A stretch of DNA of 64,000 nt from an uncultured bacterium (GTDB taxonomy: Bacteria; Cyanobacteriota; Vampirovibrionia; Gastranaerophilales; Gastranaerophilaceae): positions 124,001-188,000 of the forward strand of contig CATLLJ010000002.1 of NCBI GenBank assembly GCA_950022495.1, read 5' to 3'. Positions 8,426 through 64,000 of this stretch are shown one piece after another (positions within the stretch are counted from its first letter, which is position 1; every line of letters begins with the position of its first letter). Made by a program: the position numbers and the translations under genes. The notes under the pieces are model-generated. The model was not told where the DNA came from. It made no database searches and saw only the letters and a program-made list of their open reading frames with translations.

Positions 8426-9088
8426 CTAATAACCATATTGTTCGTGAGCATTCAAGTATTCTCGAACCGTATTCAATGACGATTGTACAATACGAGTAAC
8501 CCTCGACGGTGAAAGACCGATTTGCGTTGCAATATCCTTCACCTGCATATTTCTATAAAATCTATATTCAACAACCGTTCTTTCTTTTGGCGGAAGCTTA
8601 GAGATTGCAGCTCTTATCATTTTACCCATTTCTGAAATTTCAGCACTTTCATCAGGTAAAGCATGCGGATCTTTTACAAAATCAAACGGCGAATCATTAT
8701 CACTTGCGGCAGCAGCCAAACTATCAATAGACAATACAGTTTCGTAAATGGCTTCACGAACTTTTGCCTGTTTCATATCCATGCCGTCAACTGACTCTTC
8801 ATCATCATAATCGTCTACGGCTTTATGTTTTAAAGAATACCATTTATATCTTATTCTTAATTCGTTTCTGATTGCCCAGCGGACAGCAGTTGCAATATAT
8901 GCAGCATTGTATTTTTCTAATTGCTCAGGTGTTTTATTTTTAATCATTACCTGAATTGCAATAATACCAATTGAAAGCAGTTCTTCGTATTCGACCATGT
9001 GAGACGGAATACGTCTATGCTCAACCCGTGCTACCTTTTGAACAAGATCTATATATTGTTGTAATTTTTTCTTTTCATCTTTATTCAT
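8426..9088 (-). CDS. Sigma-70 family RNA polymerase sigma factor (flagellar-linked)
   Basis: About 220 residues. Region 2 is recognisable (EYEELLSIGIIAIQVMIK, then AAYIATAVRWAIRNELR). The C-terminal region 4 helix-turn-helix contains KLPPKERTVVEYRFYRNMQV and DIATQIGLSPSRVTRIVQSS. Region 3 looks reduced and is replaced by an acidic linker (DDYDDEESVDGMD). It lies 30 nt downstream of flhB on the same strand, which suggests a role in flagellar gene control. It is clearly distinct from the FliA-like gene at 21842. An ATG 12 nt further upstream (9100) is equally possible, since ribosome-binding sequence is weak at both. Confidence 0.8.
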   Translation of the reverse strand: MNKDEKKKLQQYIDLVQKVARVEHRRIPSHMVEYEELLSIGIIAIQVMIKNKTPEQLEKYNAAYIATAVRWAIRNELRIRYKWYSLKHKAVDDYDDEESVDGMDMKQAKVREAIYETVLSIDSLAAAASDNDSPFDFVKDPHALPDESAEISEMGKMIRAAISKLPPKERTVVEYRFYRNMQVKDIATQIGLSPSRVTRIVQSSLNTVREYLNAHEQYGY

Positions 9089-9118
9089 AATTTTACACAT
9101 CCATAATACTACAAGATA

Positions 9119-10195
9119 TTAATTTCGCGGTCGTTTATTTGGTGGATTTTTCATTTTGTAAACGAACATCAGAATTTCCGCAACAGCTTTGTACAATTCA
9201 GGAGGGATAGACTGGTTTATATCGACCATCCTGAACAAAGCTCTTGCAACCGGCGGATTTTCAATTACCGGCACATTATGATCTTTTGCAATATTAATAA
9301 TCTTTTTAGCTATCAACTCTGTACCTTTAGCAATAAGCATAGGTGAATCCATTTCTTCGGCTACATATTTCAGAGCACATGCAACATGGGTAGGGTTTGT
9401 AACAACAAAATCCGCAGTAGGAACCGCATCCATTGCACCTTGCTGAAGCATTTGCATACGACGCTGGCGAAGCTGTGCTTTTACATTCGGGTCACCTTCG
9501 GAGTTCTTATATTCATCTTTAATTTCTTTAAACGACATTTTCTGGTCTTTTAAAAATTTTGCTTTTGTAACCCCGTAATCGGCTGCTGCAATAATCAAAA
9601 ATGCAATACACGCTTTAAAAATAAATTCTGTTAAAAGTTCGCCGAATTCTTTCATAACTGCAAAGTTATTATCAACTTGAGCAAGCTGCAAAATATGTTC
9701 AATGTGCTCTTTATAAACCATCCAGCCTATATAACCTAAAATAACAACCTTAACAATGTTTTTGAACAATTCAAACAGGGTTTTCATAGACATAATATTT
9801 TTAAAATATTTTGTAGGGTTTAATTTATCAAGCTTCGGCATCAATGGAGCAATAGCCACAAGCGGACCAACCTGCACAAAATCTGCAAGAATAGCAACAA
9901 GCCATGCCAGAAAAAGGATTGGCCCAATAATCATTGCGGCACCTTTTGATGCAATAAGAAAAATATACAAATATCCTATCTGATCAATATGAGCATTTGG
10001 AATTTGTTCATACAATAGCGTAAAAACCTGAACAATTTGATCCCATATAAAAGGAGCAATCCCAAAAATTGCAGAAAACAAAATAAGCAGCGAAACAGCT
10101 GTTGAAAAGTCTTTTGACTTAACAACCTGCCCTTCTTTTCGTGCACGTTCCAACTTCTGGGGGGTGGCATCAAACTGTTTGTCTTCATCACCCAT
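9119..10195 (-). CDS. flhB: Flagellar biosynthesis protein FlhB
   Basis: Inner-membrane component of the flagellar type III export gate. 358 residues. The N-terminus reads DKQFDATPQKLERARKEGQV, the canonical FlhB opening (E.[T.P.K..AR..G.]). About four transmembrane segments follow (between residues ~30 and ~215). The cytoplasmic domain carries the autocleavage motif NPTH (VVTNPTHVACALKY). This is strong evidence that the organism has a flagellum or a flagellar-type export apparatus. Shine-Dalgarno AAAGGAACT precedes the ATG. Confidence 0.95.
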   Translation of the reverse strand: MGDEDKQFDATPQKLERARKEGQVVKSKDFSTAVSLLILFSAIFGIAPFIWDQIVQVFTLLYEQIPNAHIDQIGYLYIFLIASKGAAMIIGPILFLAWLVAILADFVQVGPLVAIAPLMPKLDKLNPTKYFKNIMSMKTLFELFKNIVKVVILGYIGWMVYKEHIEHILQLAQVDNNFAVMKEFGELLTEFIFKACIAFLIIAAADYGVTKAKFLKDQKMSFKEIKDEYKNSEGDPNVKAQLRQRRMQMLQQGAMDAVPTADFVVTNPTHVACALKYVAEEMDSPMLIAKGTELIAKKIINIAKDHNVPVIENPPVARALFRMVDINQSIPPELYKAVAEILMFVYKMKNPPNKRPRN

Positions 10196-17128: not shown

Positions 17129-17302
17129 AACAATTCCCTTTTCAAGATAAATATTTAATTCCCCGGACTCATATATAAAAAATTTTTAAAAAGTAGAATT
17201 GCCATACTATATCATATAATGACATATTATATTGGCAGTATAACTGGATTTGATGGATACCAAACTTAACTTAACAAACATTTACAATTAAGACCTAAAA
17301 AT

Positions 17303-17330
17303 TAAAGTTTCTACAAGTATATGCCGAATA
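17303..17330 (+). promoter_or_regulatory. Sigma-28 (FliA-type) promoter
   Basis: TAAAGTTT (17303-17310), 12-nt spacer, GCCGAATA (17323-17330), close to the enterobacterial FliA consensus TAAAGTTT-N11-GCCGATAA. It lies 34 nt upstream of the ATG at 17364. An 11-bp palindrome (TACAAGTATAT/ATATACTTGTA) straddles the -10. Confidence 0.75.
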
Positions 17331-17363
17331 TATACTTGTAAGGAAACAAAAGGGATAAGTCTA

Positions 17364-17891
17364 ATGAGTCTAAACGTAAATTATACTTCATTATACAAGA
17401 ACGGTATCGATACCTCTATCCTTAAAGAAGTATCTAAAGAAATCCTTAACCGTGCTGCTGAAAAAAGTTCCCGTTTTGTTAACACTTCTGCTTCTCAACA
17501 AGTAAATTCAATTGCAAAACCTGTAGAATTAGGTATTGACTTATATCAGGGTAAACTTGAAGTTAATGCTCAAAAACAAATTGCAATGAATAATACTTTA
17601 CAATTCCAATTCAACCAGACTACACTAAATTCTATTCAATATTTAAACTCTCAAGCTGCAATAGCAAAAAGAGTTGACGGCAAATACATGCCTGCTGTTA
17701 ATGAAGTTGTTACTGAAACTCAAAAATCAGTTGAAACAAATTCAGCATCACACTTCATAAGTATTTTCACAGCAGCAACTGCCAAAGATAAAGAAGGTTC
17801 AAACCCTTTCTACAACGGTGAACTTCTTACTAAAAATGCTAAAAAAGAAGAACAAAAAGACGTTGAACCATTAAAAAGTATTTTTGCATAA
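17364..17891 (+). CDS. Unknown protein under a sigma-28 promoter (flagellar-class candidate)
   Basis: 175 residues, no signal peptide, Asn/Gln/Ser-rich, predicted helical with coiled-coil character (QKQIAMNNTLQFQFNQTTLN, LNSIQYLNSQAAIAKR). It begins MSLNVNYTSLYKNGIDTSIL. No family recognised. Shine-Dalgarno-like AAAGGGATAAG precedes the start. The sigma-28 promoter directly upstream implies expression late in the flagellar cascade, so it may be a secreted or structural flagellar component or a chaperone; this is inference only. Confidence 0.7.
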   Translation: MSLNVNYTSLYKNGIDTSILKEVSKEILNRAAEKSSRFVNTSASQQVNSIAKPVELGIDLYQGKLEVNAQKQIAMNNTLQFQFNQTTLNSIQYLNSQAAIAKRVDGKYMPAVNEVVTETQKSVETNSASHFISIFTAATAKDKEGSNPFYNGELLTKNAKKEEQKDVEPLKSIFA

Positions 17892-17950
17892 TAAATAAAA
17901 AATTATATATTTCTCAATTTTGATTTCCTTATGTTTACAAAAATGTTTTA

Positions 17951-17977
17951 TTCCCCTTTTCGGGGAATTTTTTTTGC
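17951..17977 (+). terminator. Intrinsic terminator
   Basis: TTCCCC-TTTTC-GGGGAA hairpin followed by a T8 run, ~60 nt after the stop at 17891. Confidence 0.8.
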
Positions 17978-19875: not shown

Positions 19876-19939
19876 TTGAAAAGCTTTACATAATACTTTA
19901 TATTGAAATTTTATGCTAAAATGTGTTCTGGAGTATAAA

Positions 19940-20950
19940 ATGGCAGCAAACGCAGTCTTAGAAGAAATTAAGGATACAAAAAAAACATTAGTATTGCATA
20001 CATTCATGGATTTCTGCTCCGGAATCGGAGGCGGAAGACTTGGAATGACAAACAATAACCTAAAATGTGTTGCTTATAGTGAAATTGAGAATGCTCCGGC
20101 TTCAACTTACCAATTATTTTTTGGAAATGAAGAAAAAAACTATGGGGATTTGATGAGTATTGAACCATCAAACCTGCCGGATTTCGACCTGCTGGTATGC
20201 GGATTTCCATGCCAAACATTTAGTATTGTAGGGAAAAGAGCCGGATTTGAAGACCTGAGAGGGCAGGTAATTTATGGTATTGCAAGAATTTTAAAAGAAA
20301 AGCAGGTTCCATGCTTTATTTTAGAAAATGTTAAAGGACTGCTAAATCATAACAAAGGCAAAACTTTAAATGCAATTATCTCAATGCTGAAAAACCTCGG
20401 GTATGACATAAATTACGAGCTGTTAGACAGTTCAAACTATGGTGTTCCGCAAATGAGAGAACGCGTTTATATAGTCGGAATTCATCAGAATTATTTACAT
20501 AAAGAGTTTAAATTCCCTGAACCGGTAAAAGAAGCACAATTATCGGACTATCTGATTGATAGCAGCAGCGAAGTTTTACCTGTAACAAACCCGACTTTTC
20601 AAAAATACTTAAACAATAAGTACAACAAAAACAAATTCGATATCCACGAAATATTAAAAGAAGACTACACAATAATTGACACCAGACAAAGCGATTTAAG
20701 AATTTATAAAACAAAATGCCCAACACTCCGCACCGGAAGACATGGTATTTTATATACAAAAAATGGTCAGCTGCATAAGTTATCAGACCTAGAAGCACTC
20801 TTACTGCAAGGATTTCCTCATGAACTTGCGATAAAGGCAAAACAGTCAGGTATTCCGATGAGCAAATTATTATCTCAAGCCGGAAACGCAATGACGGTCA
20901 ACGTAATGGAAAAAATTTGCGGTCAATTAATATCATGCCTGAAAGTTTAA
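19940..20950 (+). CDS. DNA (cytosine-5) methyltransferase of a type II R-M system
   Basis: 336 residues. C5-MTase motifs in order are I (DFCSGIGGGRLGM), IV (GFPCQTFS with the catalytic PCQ), VI (ILENVKGLL), VIII (QMRERVYIVG) and X (QAGNAMTVNV), with a ~90-residue target-recognition region between VIII and X. The next gene is a HinP1I-like endonuclease, so the expected target is GCGC (inference from the endonuclease relative). Start at 19940 chosen for GGAG 6 nt upstream; a TGCTAAAAT -10 lies about 20 nt before the ATG. Confidence 0.92.
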   Translation: MAANAVLEEIKDTKKTLVLHTFMDFCSGIGGGRLGMTNNNLKCVAYSEIENAPASTYQLFFGNEEKNYGDLMSIEPSNLPDFDLLVCGFPCQTFSIVGKRAGFEDLRGQVIYGIARILKEKQVPCFILENVKGLLNHNKGKTLNAIISMLKNLGYDINYELLDSSNYGVPQMRERVYIVGIHQNYLHKEFKFPEPVKEAQLSDYLIDSSSEVLPVTNPTFQKYLNNKYNKNKFDIHEILKEDYTIIDTRQSDLRIYKTKCPTLRTGRHGILYTKNGQLHKLSDLEALLLQGFPHELAIKAKQSGIPMSKLLSQAGNAMTVNVMEKICGQLISCLKV

Positions 20951-20963
20951 AGAAAGGATTAGC

Positions 20964-21707
20964 ATGACAAATCTGGTTGAATTAGGTTCAAATACAGCAC
21001 GTAACGGATTTCGCAACGAACACTTTGTAGCAGATAAATTTAACAACTGGAACAAAGATGCTGAAGCTCAACAATGGTTATCATTATTAGGCTGTAACTT
21101 AGATGATATTGAACAGGTAAATGCAAATGTATTACACGGTTACAAAGCTGATGTTAATGTCCAAATAAAACTTAAAAATAGTTCAGAAATCAAAACCGAA
21201 AACATTCAGGTAAAATTAGTTTCTAACAAATGCGGATTCAATCAAGTTGATAAACGCTGGTTATCGCATTATCAAGAGTTATGGGACATGCCGGAAGACG
21301 TTTTTCACCTGCTGCAATACTTTACCGGAGAAATTCCGCCATATAAACAAGGTACCAGAGATTCACGCAGAATGTTTTTCCCTGAAATGACAGGAAATGA
21401 ACGGGAAATCATATACAACTGGTTTTCGCAAAATAAAGCCCTGATTCTTACAGATATAATAAAAGGTCGTGGAGAATTCTGTGCAAACTGGATACTTGTA
21501 ATAAGAAAAATTGAAGATAACATGTCATGGTCTTTAAAAAGTACAGAAGAAGCCTTGGAACACTATGGTTCCGGAGGGGTAACATTCAGCCCTAGGGGTT
21601 CACTAAACATTGGTCAGGTTGGCATGCAGAGAAAAGGCGGCGACGGAGGAAGAAAAACCGCTAACATGCTTCAATTCAAGCTTGATCCGACATCACTGAT
21701 GAAATAA
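20964..21707 (+). CDS. HinP1I-like type II restriction endonuclease
   Basis: 247 residues. From memory of R.HinP1I (recognises G^CGC), the resemblance runs the whole length: NLVELGSNTARNGFRNEHFV, GYKADVNVQIK, NIQVKLVSNKCGFNQVDKRW, LTDIIKGRGEF, LEHYGSGGVTFSPRGS and GGDGGRKTANMLQFKLDPT. The PD-(D/E)xK-type catalytic residues would be the Asp in GYKAD and the QVK in NIQVK. Located 13 nt after the methyltransferase in one operon. This completes a type II R-M system against unmethylated foreign DNA. Confidence 0.9.
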   Translation: MTNLVELGSNTARNGFRNEHFVADKFNNWNKDAEAQQWLSLLGCNLDDIEQVNANVLHGYKADVNVQIKLKNSSEIKTENIQVKLVSNKCGFNQVDKRWLSHYQELWDMPEDVFHLLQYFTGEIPPYKQGTRDSRRMFFPEMTGNEREIIYNWFSQNKALILTDIIKGRGEFCANWILVIRKIEDNMSWSLKSTEEALEHYGSGGVTFSPRGSLNIGQVGMQRKGGDGGRKTANMLQFKLDPTSLMK

Positions 21708-21841: not shown

Positions 21842-22666
21842 ATGGAACAGAGTTTTGATTTTTCTTCTTATAACAACATAAAACGATTATCCGAGAACGA
21901 ACTTGAAGTGCTCTGGGAAAAATATCTTTCTGACAAATCAGATAAACATTCCCGCGACCTTCTTATTGTTCAATATATCTACCTTGTAAGATATGCGGTA
22001 GGTCGTGTTAAAGTATCTCTTCCGGCAACTATATCAATAGAAGATATCACAGGATACGGGGTTGAGGGTTTAATCAATGCAGTTGAACGTTTCTCTCCAC
22101 AGAAAGCAACACGTTTTGAAACTTACGCTCTAATTAGAATTAGAGGCTCTATTATTGATAAAATCAGAGCACAGGATTTCCTACCAAGAACTGTAAGAAA
22201 AAAAATTAAAGATATTAAGCAGGCTACAGAAATTCTTAAACAAGAATTAGGAAGAGTTCCTACAGCTACAGAAATTGCTAACTATCTTGATATGGATGTT
22301 GAAAAAGTTAACCAGATAATGTCTGAAGATGTAACTATAACCTCTATATATGATAAAAGAGGTTCTTCTGAAGACAGCATGGAAATCATTGATACAATTG
22401 AAGATTCTCATAAATTAAATCCACAAGAACGAATGGAAGAAAAAAATGTCAAAACAGACTTGCAAAAGGCACTTCAAAGACTTCCTGAAAGAGAAAGAGT
22501 TCTCTTAGTTCTTTACTATCAAGAAAACATGACTATGAAAGAAATCGGCTCTACATTAGGAATGTCCGAATCCAGAGTATGCCAGCTTCATGCTCAAGGT
22601 ATCATGAAACTTAAAAACATACTTAATGAAAACCGTACATCAAGACTTCAACAAGCTATTGTTTAA
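21842..22666 (+). CDS. fliA: RNA polymerase sigma factor, FliA/WhiG (sigma-28) family
   Basis: 274 residues. Region 2 is LIVQYIYLVRYAVGRV and FETYALIRIRGSIIDKIRAQ (the FliA/WhiG 'YA..RIRGAilD.lR..D' signature), then region 3 (LPRTVRKK, VPTATEIANYL) and region 4 (LPERERVLLVLYYQENMTMK, IGSTLGMSESRVCQLHAQ). FliA directs late flagellar genes from TAAA-N15-GCCGA promoters. Three such promoters occur in this window, at 17303, 34457 and 62744. Shine-Dalgarno TAGAGGT precedes the ATG. The 3' end overlaps the convergent OmpA-like gene by 11 nt. Confidence 0.9.
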   Translation: MEQSFDFSSYNNIKRLSENELEVLWEKYLSDKSDKHSRDLLIVQYIYLVRYAVGRVKVSLPATISIEDITGYGVEGLINAVERFSPQKATRFETYALIRIRGSIIDKIRAQDFLPRTVRKKIKDIKQATEILKQELGRVPTATEIANYLDMDVEKVNQIMSEDVTITSIYDKRGSSEDSMEIIDTIEDSHKLNPQERMEEKNVKTDLQKALQRLPERERVLLVLYYQENMTMKEIGSTLGMSESRVCQLHAQGIMKLKNILNENRTSRLQQAIV

Positions 22667-27786: not shown

Positions 27787-27934
27787 TATTCTTTACTCCA
27801 TAGATTCTATCTGATTACAAATTATTTATCGGCAGTTTCAAATATAATCTTTAAAAATCCGGAGAGTTTGTTAACAAATATTAATATAAAAAATTTCAAT
27901 TCAATAACGTATACAAATAAAAACTGAATTAATA

Positions 27935-34456: not shown

Positions 34457-34483
34457 TAAAGTTTAAAAAAAATATGCCGAATA
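34457..34483 (+). promoter_or_regulatory. Sigma-28 (FliA-type) promoter
   Basis: TAAAGTTT (34457-34464), 11-nt spacer, GCCGAATA (34476-34483): optimal spacing for FliA. It lies 33 nt upstream of the micro-gene ATG at 34516. Confidence 0.78.
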
Positions 34484-62653: not shown

Positions 62654-62743
62654 TCAGGTTAGTCCGGTTTCCACGTCAACTAAATCTCCCCACTCCGCCG
62701 AGGAGTTATTGTAACAAATTCTTAACATTACACAACAATTTCC

Positions 62744-62771
62744 TAAAGATTACACCAATATGTGCCGAAAA
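62744..62771 (+). promoter_or_regulatory. Sigma-28 (FliA-type) promoter
   Basis: TAAAGATT (62744-62751), 12-nt spacer, GCCGAAAA (62764-62771), 45 nt upstream of the large ORF start. Confidence 0.65.
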
Positions 62772-62816: not shown

Positions 62817-64000
62817 ATGGGAATGGCAGCATCACAAGCAAGATTATTAAGCATGACCGCCAGAATTTCAAACAATGAGTTTGAACAACAGTCAATTGCT
62901 TATTCTAAACAGCGTCTTGCTGACGATTCTTCTCGTGTTAACGATGCTTATCTTGAAGCTTTAAACAAAACTCAATTCCAGGTTTTAACAGGATACAACG
63001 GTGCAGAAGCTTGTTATGAAGATTTAACTTACAATCAAATTACAGGCTGCAACAAAATTGCAAACGGCAAACAATACATCGTTAAAAATAACAAAGGAAA
63101 AGTTCTTGTTTCTGAAGCAATTGCTAAAGCTTTTAGAGAAAATAACGGCGACTACAACAAATTCTTGAGAGATTTAGGATACAGACAGGCTAATATTGAT
63201 GTTAAAAATCACACTGAATCAGTTGAAGCTATTCACGAAGCCTGGGATAAATATTTAAATACTGTTGGTAAAAGTATTAATGATGCAGACAATCAACATA
63301 TTTTAGGTTTTGGTTACACATCATTTGGTGATGAGTCATTCAACGGCTACCCTACATACAATACTGCAACTGGAACAGATTCTACAGGTAAAGCTTATTC
63401 ATTATACAAAGATGAACAAGGTTACTATTTAACAAATTCTGTAGTCGTTCCTAAAAAGAATGATGACGGAAAATATGAATGCTATTATCAAACTCCGGAA
63501 CAATACGGAACAGATGAATATAACAAATTAGAAGATATAACTTACGACGACAAAACTAAAAAATTCACTTATAAAAATTCTGACGGCACAACAAAACAAG
63601 TAGATGTTTTATATGCAACTCAAACTGATGCAGGTAATGCATACGTAAGCGAAGATGAAAAAAATCGCTTATCTGAATACGGCTCACAATATAGAGCTGA
63701 AAACGGTATTCTTTACACTGTAAAAGATAAATTCAAAGCATTAAACTTTGAAGGTACAACTCAAGCTCAAAGAGAACTATATGACTATGCTTTAGCTTTA
63801 ACCGAAGCATACTATGACAGAGCTAATTCTAACACTACAGGCAATCCTAATTTAAAATACGATGCTGAACAAATTAACTATTACAAAAATATCTTCAATG
63901 AAATGAGAACATGCGACTTCACTACATTAAAAGAATCTTATGCTCAAAATCTTGATAGCGCTGAAGATGCAAACAAATCTTCAAATGTATTCACCGGTGA
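62817..64000 (+). CDS. Large protein with conserved MGMAASQARLL start, sigma-28 promoter (partial)
   Basis: At least 394 codons, open to the right edge. It begins MGMAASQARLLSMTARISNN, then EFEQQSIAYSKQRLADDSSR. I recall similar 'M.G.AsSQARLL.LTAR..D.E..' openings on unassigned proteins of several Gram-negative lineages. The remainder is Asn/Asp/Tyr-rich and repetitive in character (YKDEQGYYLTNS, LEDITYDDKTKKFTYKNSDG), without signal peptide. With a sigma-28 promoter in front, a protein secreted by the flagellar apparatus or a structural flagellar protein is a reasonable guess, not more. AAAGGA lies 11 nt before the ATG. Confidence 0.75.
   Translation, partial: MGMAASQARLLSMTARISNNEFEQQSIAYSKQRLADDSSRVNDAYLEALNKTQFQVLTGYNGAEACYEDLTYNQITGCNKIANGKQYIVKNNKGKVLVSEAIAKAFRENNGDYNKFLRDLGYRQANIDVKNHTESVEAIHEAWDKYLNTVGKSINDADNQHILGFGYTSFGDESFNGYPTYNTATGTDSTGKAYSLYKDEQGYYLTNSVVVPKKNDDGKYECYYQTPEQYGTDEYNKLEDITYDDKTKKFTYKNSDGTTKQVDVLYATQTDAGNAYVSEDEKNRLSEYGSQYRAENGILYTVKDKFKALNFEGTTQAQRELYDYALALTEAYYDRANSNTTGNPNLKYDAEQINYYKNIFNEMRTCDFTTLKESYAQNLDSAEDANKSSNVFTG

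Follow-up and report, generated by a model that had tools for sequence, protein, structure and literature searches.

Sigma-28 (FliA) is usually regarded as the flagellar sigma factor. In Campylobacter jejuni, FliA-dependent non-flagellar proteins, the Feds, are exported by the flagellar system. Chlamydia has no flagella. The accessible text of a report on Chlamydia trachomatis (PMC10597470) describes a retained sigma-28 whose regulon consists of two genes. For the order Gastranaerophilales, the portions available of Soo et al. 2014 (PMC4040986) give complete flagellar sets in only three of nine genomes, infer non-motile members and regard the remaining partial sets as a subset unable to make a flagellum; a termite species is described as probably motile in the part available of PMC5877343. 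Here we analysed a stretch of 64,000 nucleotides (nt) from an uncultured bacterium of the Gastranaerophilaceae, hereafter the window, and in particular the gene P0001, which encodes a protein of 175 amino acids (aa) and is preceded by a sigma-28-type promoter.

P0001 resembles the flagellar genes of the late class (class 3) that FliA controls, such as flagellin: it has a FliA-type promoter, forms a short monocistronic unit, is predicted to be highly expressed and encodes a Cys-free product. Functionally, it would come closest to a class 3 substrate of the flagellum. It differs from flagellin in having no flagellin match and no paired terminal helices in its model, and in being kept where flagellin has been lost. 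The likeness to the Feds lies in non-flagellar genes that are switched by sigma-28, with export via a flagellar-type gate here only a candidate; however, C. jejuni is flagellated, whereas flagellin is missing in our case and the gate belongs to another FlhA class. C. trachomatis likewise retains sigma-28 as a non-flagellated bacterium, but to the two regulon genes described in the accessible text of PMC10597470 correspond 10 candidate sites in the window's own genome and 131 in 12 congeners. Compared with the partial sets as presented in the available portions of PMC4040986, the FlhA retained here is a distinct class, coexists with flagellar FlhA in flagellated relatives and has a conserved FliA-type regulon. 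We tentatively favour, with a little less than even confidence, the reading that P0001 is an abundant late-class, probably structural substrate of a second, flagellum-derived but non-flagellar export system, and is transcribed alone from a FliA promoter.

The promoter of P0001

P0001 is encoded on the plus strand (ATG at 17364, stop at 17891). The sigma-28-type promoter upstream occupies 17303–17330 on the same strand, with the −35 element TAAAGTTT (17303–17310) and the −10 element GCCGAATA (17323–17330) separated by a 12-nt spacer; the sigma-28 consensus is TAAAGTTT-N11-GCCGATAA. The pattern TAAAGN{15,17}CCGWWWA occurred four times in the window compared with 0.27 expected. With TAAAGWTTN{11,13}CCGWWWA, we obtained the 10 sites in the own genome and the 131 in the 12 congeners mentioned above, as opposed to 3 and 19, respectively, with a reversed-pattern control.

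Close orthologues of P0001 were found at 41 related loci in our genome collection, 40 of them with upstream sequence (L060 had none). In every one of the 41 upstream regions (the window and the 40 orthologues), a box scoring 13–16 of 16 was located 56–63 nt before the ATG; scores of at least 13 were reached in 4 of 2,050 shuffled sequences. The letters of the spacer varied freely among the orthologues, and its length was 11 or 12 nt. Among distant homologues from other genera and families, 13 of 15 scored at least 13, with the box 51–66 nt before the ATG, and the remaining two scored 12 and 11. The near-consensus sigma-28 promoter that the preliminary description had placed in front of a 175-aa open reading frame (ORF) is thus borne out by its coordinates, its enrichment over chance and its conservation across orthologues.

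The presumed reader of the box is a FliA/WhiG-family sigma factor encoded at 21842–22666 on the plus strand (235.8 bits, cut-off 189.6), the sole sigma above the FliA/WhiG cut-off in the own genome. Its presence in the window together with flhB (9119–10195), also claimed earlier, was confirmed. Box type and placement upstream of the orthologues fit a FliA promoter, and the conservation is plain; that P0001 depends on FliA is what these sequence features suggest. Because an intrinsic terminator with a T tail follows downstream (17950–17977, plus strand; stem 17950–17968), the gene is apparently transcribed alone.

Loss of flagellin and a second FlhA class

FliA scored above its curated cut-off in 35 of the 36 genomes of the genus. 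Flagellin was found in a single one (G013, 88% complete and 6% contaminated), and CsrA in none of the 36. Genomes of the same order from outside the family (n=22) carried flagellin in 21 cases and CsrA in 17.

A search for the FlhA family in 192 genomes of the order revealed two classes separated by a score gap. FlhA1, the flagellar type (817–891 bits), was present in 70 of the 192 genomes, and in almost all others FlhA2 (about 700–736 bits) gave the highest-scoring full-length match, G035 and G150 having no full-length match. Flagellated relatives often carry both. Among nine sequences, identity was 69–74% within FlhA1, about 70–81% within FlhA2 and 30–39% (about 37%) between the classes. The own genome has FlhA2 alone, which scored below the equivalog cut-offs of both flagellar FlhA (700.4 versus 772.1 bits) and the injectisome protein SctV (588.7 versus 692.25 bits); FlhA1 of G038 exceeded the flagellar cut-off (854.3 bits). 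The flhB gene of the retained export system, on the minus strand of the window, was just under the flagellar and injectisome equivalog cut-offs (SctU: 319.7 bits, cut-off 358).

The gene order in the own genome is fliE, fliF, an unnamed 335-aa gene, fliH and then flhA2. Flagellar-type FliE, FliF and FliH were matched in this genome, and flagellar-type rod genes in G022. By eye, against the tested G022 genes, the clusters of G050, G041 and G047 also hold two flgF/G-like genes, flgB and flgC; they contain one more gene, which in G041 matched a lytic transglycosylase, and the cluster of G050 also includes a FliI-type ATPase, again by match. In three genomes of the genus, the four rod genes stand together but away from the flhA2 cluster. 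A 14/16 box precedes gene p90 in the own cluster, and a gene related to the MGxAASQARLL proteins described below ends upstream of this box. In our reading, the FlhA2 cluster encodes an additional export system that derives from the flagellum but is not flagellar, and through which proteins would be secreted. Among the matches listed by literature searches on Gastranaerophilales, Melainabacteria, Vampirovibrionia and flagellum-derived type III secretion, no title or abstract opening describes a second type III secretion system or a sigma-28 regulon for the order.

Three genes were also noted. The 335-aa gene (L225:7167-8174) occupies the usual place of fliG and gave only a weak match, to MgtE_N (E-value 0.015); FliG and MgtE_N are considered to have the same fold, and the gene may be a remote FliG. 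A 494-aa protein of the own genome (L226:5084-6568, on G000:C8), encoded near deoD- and skp-like genes, corresponds to the C-terminal (cytoplasmic) part of FlhA only and had matches in genomes from all the families sampled. Directly after flhB, the minus strand of the window encodes a short, divergent FliA/WhiG-like sigma (8426–9100; 77 bits, cut-off 189.6), which may be a second sigma factor tied to the export system.

The P0001 protein and its possible role

For the P0001 family, searches of Pfam, NCBIfam, PHROGs and, with a profile, the PDB gave nothing convincing, and neither flagellin nor the flagellar rod-hook families in Pfam and NCBIfam were matched. The earlier statement that the protein belongs to no recognised flagellar family was upheld by these remote-homology searches; its lineage-specific character was also confirmed. 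With a P0001 profile, homologues were detected in 157 of the 192 genomes of the order, one match each (remote ones may be missed), in 34 of the 45 genera sampled and in 34 of the 36 genomes of the genus. As FlhA2 is almost ubiquitous, its co-occurrence with P0001 does not help to distinguish between explanations. By eye, the family conserves an N-terminal helix, the motif LGxDLYxGxxD, an N/Q-rich helix, the motif KDxxGSNPF and a short C-terminal motif. An AlphaFold model built with 33 sequences (predicted local distance difference test score, 54.6) has helices at residues 18–42 and 67–103 and is without order in the remainder.

Exported flagellar axial proteins are typically low in Cys. In 48 homologues of P0001, Cys and Trp accounted for 1 and 0 of 8,324 residues, compared with 1.13% and 0.64% in 54 ORFs of the window; P0001 thus shares the low Cys content of flagellin and the rod-hook proteins. 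Elsewhere, the Cys content was 0.36% in the rod and FliE proteins of the second system, 0.92% in its core, 0.49% in the MGxAASQAR proteins and 0.76% in other regulon ORFs. The codon bias of P0001 was strong, at the 95th–96th percentile of 109 ORFs of the own genome and ahead of the gene identified by eye as S1.

We favour P0001 as a late-class export substrate because its box is conserved, flagellin and CsrA have been lost with FliA kept, an FlhA2 cluster exists beside the flagellar FlhA class, the gene is single-copy, its product is depleted of Cys and Trp, its codon bias is strong and a 14/16 box lies in the cluster itself. The genus would have lost the true flagellum and retained FliA and the second export system. 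FliA would now serve lineage-specific genes, with P0001 as a conserved single-copy member transcribed as a single-gene unit. The protein would be made abundantly and exported by the second system as an axial, needle, tip or filament-like subunit; among exported roles, a structural one is our best guess.

Several findings weigh against this proposal. Just one of eight flagellin loci of flagellated relatives (L109–L116) carries a near-consensus box within 400 nt, and FliA as reader of the box is for this reason unproven. Two of the 36 genomes of the genus are without P0001, one of which (G008) is 96% complete. Codon bias is weaker in relatives, with mean percentiles at 36 orthologue loci of 0.82 for U-ending four-fold and 0.65 for C-ending two-fold codons. 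The structural model is of low confidence, with a disordered C-terminal half and no C-terminal helix, unlike the paired end helices of flagellin. Finally, P0001 is unlinked to export genes, its usual neighbours in the genus being a Skp/OmpH-like gene and lipA.

The same depletion of Cys and Trp, together with the predicted disorder, would also suit a secreted effector or matrix protein that is exported by the second system and acts outside the cell on the host or on microbial neighbours in a non-structural role. The products of other box-bearing genes are large and diverse, begin with Ser/Asn/Gln-rich stretches and include EF-hand and LysM-amidase proteins, which is in line with such a function. 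However, effectors usually vary and duplicate, whereas P0001 is strictly single-copy and conserved in most of the genera sampled; we consider this explanation possible but unlikely.

It is less probable that P0001 is a cytoplasmic protein, regulated by FliA or otherwise, that has nothing to do with export. Among the box families are HD-GYP-like and very small proteins for which no connection to export is known, several sigma-70-family genes are present per genome, so that another sigma may read the box, and seven of the eight flagellin loci of relatives are without a near-consensus box. Against this stand the almost complete lack of Cys and Trp, at levels well under those of the other regulon ORFs, the closeness of the box to the sigma-28 consensus and the fact that FliA is the only sigma of the genome above the FliA/WhiG cut-off.

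Slightly more doubtful still is a role in regulating the FliA circuit, such as that of an exported anti-sigma factor resembling FlgM or of a chaperone for substrates. Single copy, FliA-type promoter and disordered C-terminal half would all fit, and FlgM itself is exported and expressed late. Nevertheless, no FlgM match was obtained in Pfam or NCBIfam at E-values up to 1, 175 aa is long for FlgM, and the codon bias is that of a very abundant protein.

The preliminary description saw in P0001 a lineage-specific flagellum component, which we now consider very improbable: the FliA-type promoter and homologues in 43 of 70 genomes with FlhA1, one of them beside flhA1 (G038:C22), speak for it, but homologues are commoner in genomes without FlhA1 (114 of 122; Fisher P=8×10−8, not corrected for kinship), and all but two genomes of the genus carry P0001, although flagellin is missing from 35 of 36. 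Frequent homologues in genomes lacking flagella and fliA, without the promoter motif, had been named as refuting evidence; homologues are indeed frequent where flagella are missing, but fliA and the promoter motif are retained there.

The wider regulon and its meaning

For the wider regulon, we sampled 100 sites, the 10 of the own genome and 90 of the 131 from the congeners. Seventy-two fell into 15 families of at least two members, 19 were single and nine had no ORF by the rule used; a few sites inside genes, such as L083, are probably due to chance. Among these families are the MGxAASQARLL proteins, with 12 sites, a family of 46-aa proteins with 9, HD-GYP-like proteins (identified by eye) with 8, a 57-aa family with 6, and EF-hand proteins. 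Boxes of the P0001 type elsewhere in the window precede a 51-aa ORF (27826–27853, minus strand), whose family has two other box-bearing members, a 57-aa ORF (34457–34483, plus strand), with five other box-bearing members in its family, and an MGxAASQARLL-type protein that extends beyond the window (62744–62771, plus strand).

The MGxAASQARLL proteins (window 62817–64000; L077, L162, L179, L186 and L208) are box-driven and occur several times per genome. In the six complete ones, helix-like N- and C-terminal ends are conserved around a variable middle, and no family was matched; this layout resembles that of axial proteins.

The direct repeat TGTAACA-N5-TTAACAA was matched at 13 or more of 14 positions upstream of 15 of the 100 sites, in each case with its first position 34–32 nt upstream of the −35 element, compared with none of 10,000 shuffled sequences and none of 3,904 AT-rich segments of the window. 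The promoter at 62744–62771 is preceded by such a box, TGTAACAAATTCTTAACAT (62710–62728, plus strand; 13 of 14). Upstream of P0001, 23 of the 40 regions scored strongly (12–14 of 14); the window's own copy, CTTAACAAACATTTACAAT (17270–17288, plus strand), is degenerate and weak, matching 9 of 14. To our knowledge, an activator site built into sigma-28 promoters would be unusual. With their period of about 11 bp and fixed place before the promoter, the repeats resemble OmpR/PhoB-type sites and are putative sites of this kind; OmpR-family sites are given as 7-bp repeats with a 4-bp spacer in the available text of PMC4832192.

A perfect inverted repeat with 11-bp arms and a 7-nt loop (17312–17340) overlaps the −10 element of P0001, as stated earlier. 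Such repeats (loop 3–10) numbered 31 in the window and 0, 1, 0, 0 and 0 in five shuffles. The suggestion that it binds a regulator was not supported by conservation, which favours the upstream direct repeats instead: the left arm of the palindrome lies in the variable promoter spacer, and among the 40 orthologues a mean of 5.9 of 11 arm positions paired, compared with 4.7 at random, with at least nine in only 4 of 40, so that the palindrome is not generally conserved, although a few relatives share it in part. We rejected it as an operator on these grounds.

Between promoter and ATG, a strongly conserved leader, TTGTAAGGAAACAAAAGGGATAAGTCTA (17336–17363, plus strand), contains two AAGGRA-like motifs by eye. 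The CsrA-controlled hag leader has two GGA sites; control of the P0001 leader by CsrA was ruled out, as CsrA is absent from all genomes of the genus. RNA structure in 17336–17363 was not supported, and Rfam gave no match. The flagellin loci L109–L116 have a ACAAGGAGAGT-like leader in common upstream. Further downstream in the window (19913–21707), a DNA cytosine methyltransferase-like gene is followed by a 247-aa gene, possibly its restriction partner (by eye).

A bolder form of the favoured reading, which we hold to be rather unlikely, takes P0001 for the principal subunit of a surface appendage that is neither flagellum nor injectisome and has not been described before. This appendage would combine a flagellum-type exporter with FliE and an FlgB/FlgC/FlgF-G-like rod, have no flagellin, be old in Gastranaerophilales, coexist with true flagella in some families and have its late genes switched by sigma-28 and an OmpR-type activator.

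In this gut-dwelling genus, flagellin has been lost, and sigma-28, conserved target promoters before uncharacterised proteins and a second flagellum-like export system have been kept. If our reading is true, the genus would provide a natural example of a flagellum-type exporter put to another use and would point toward a system that uncultured gut bacteria display on their surface or secrete, for which the promoter signature would yield a list of candidate substrates.
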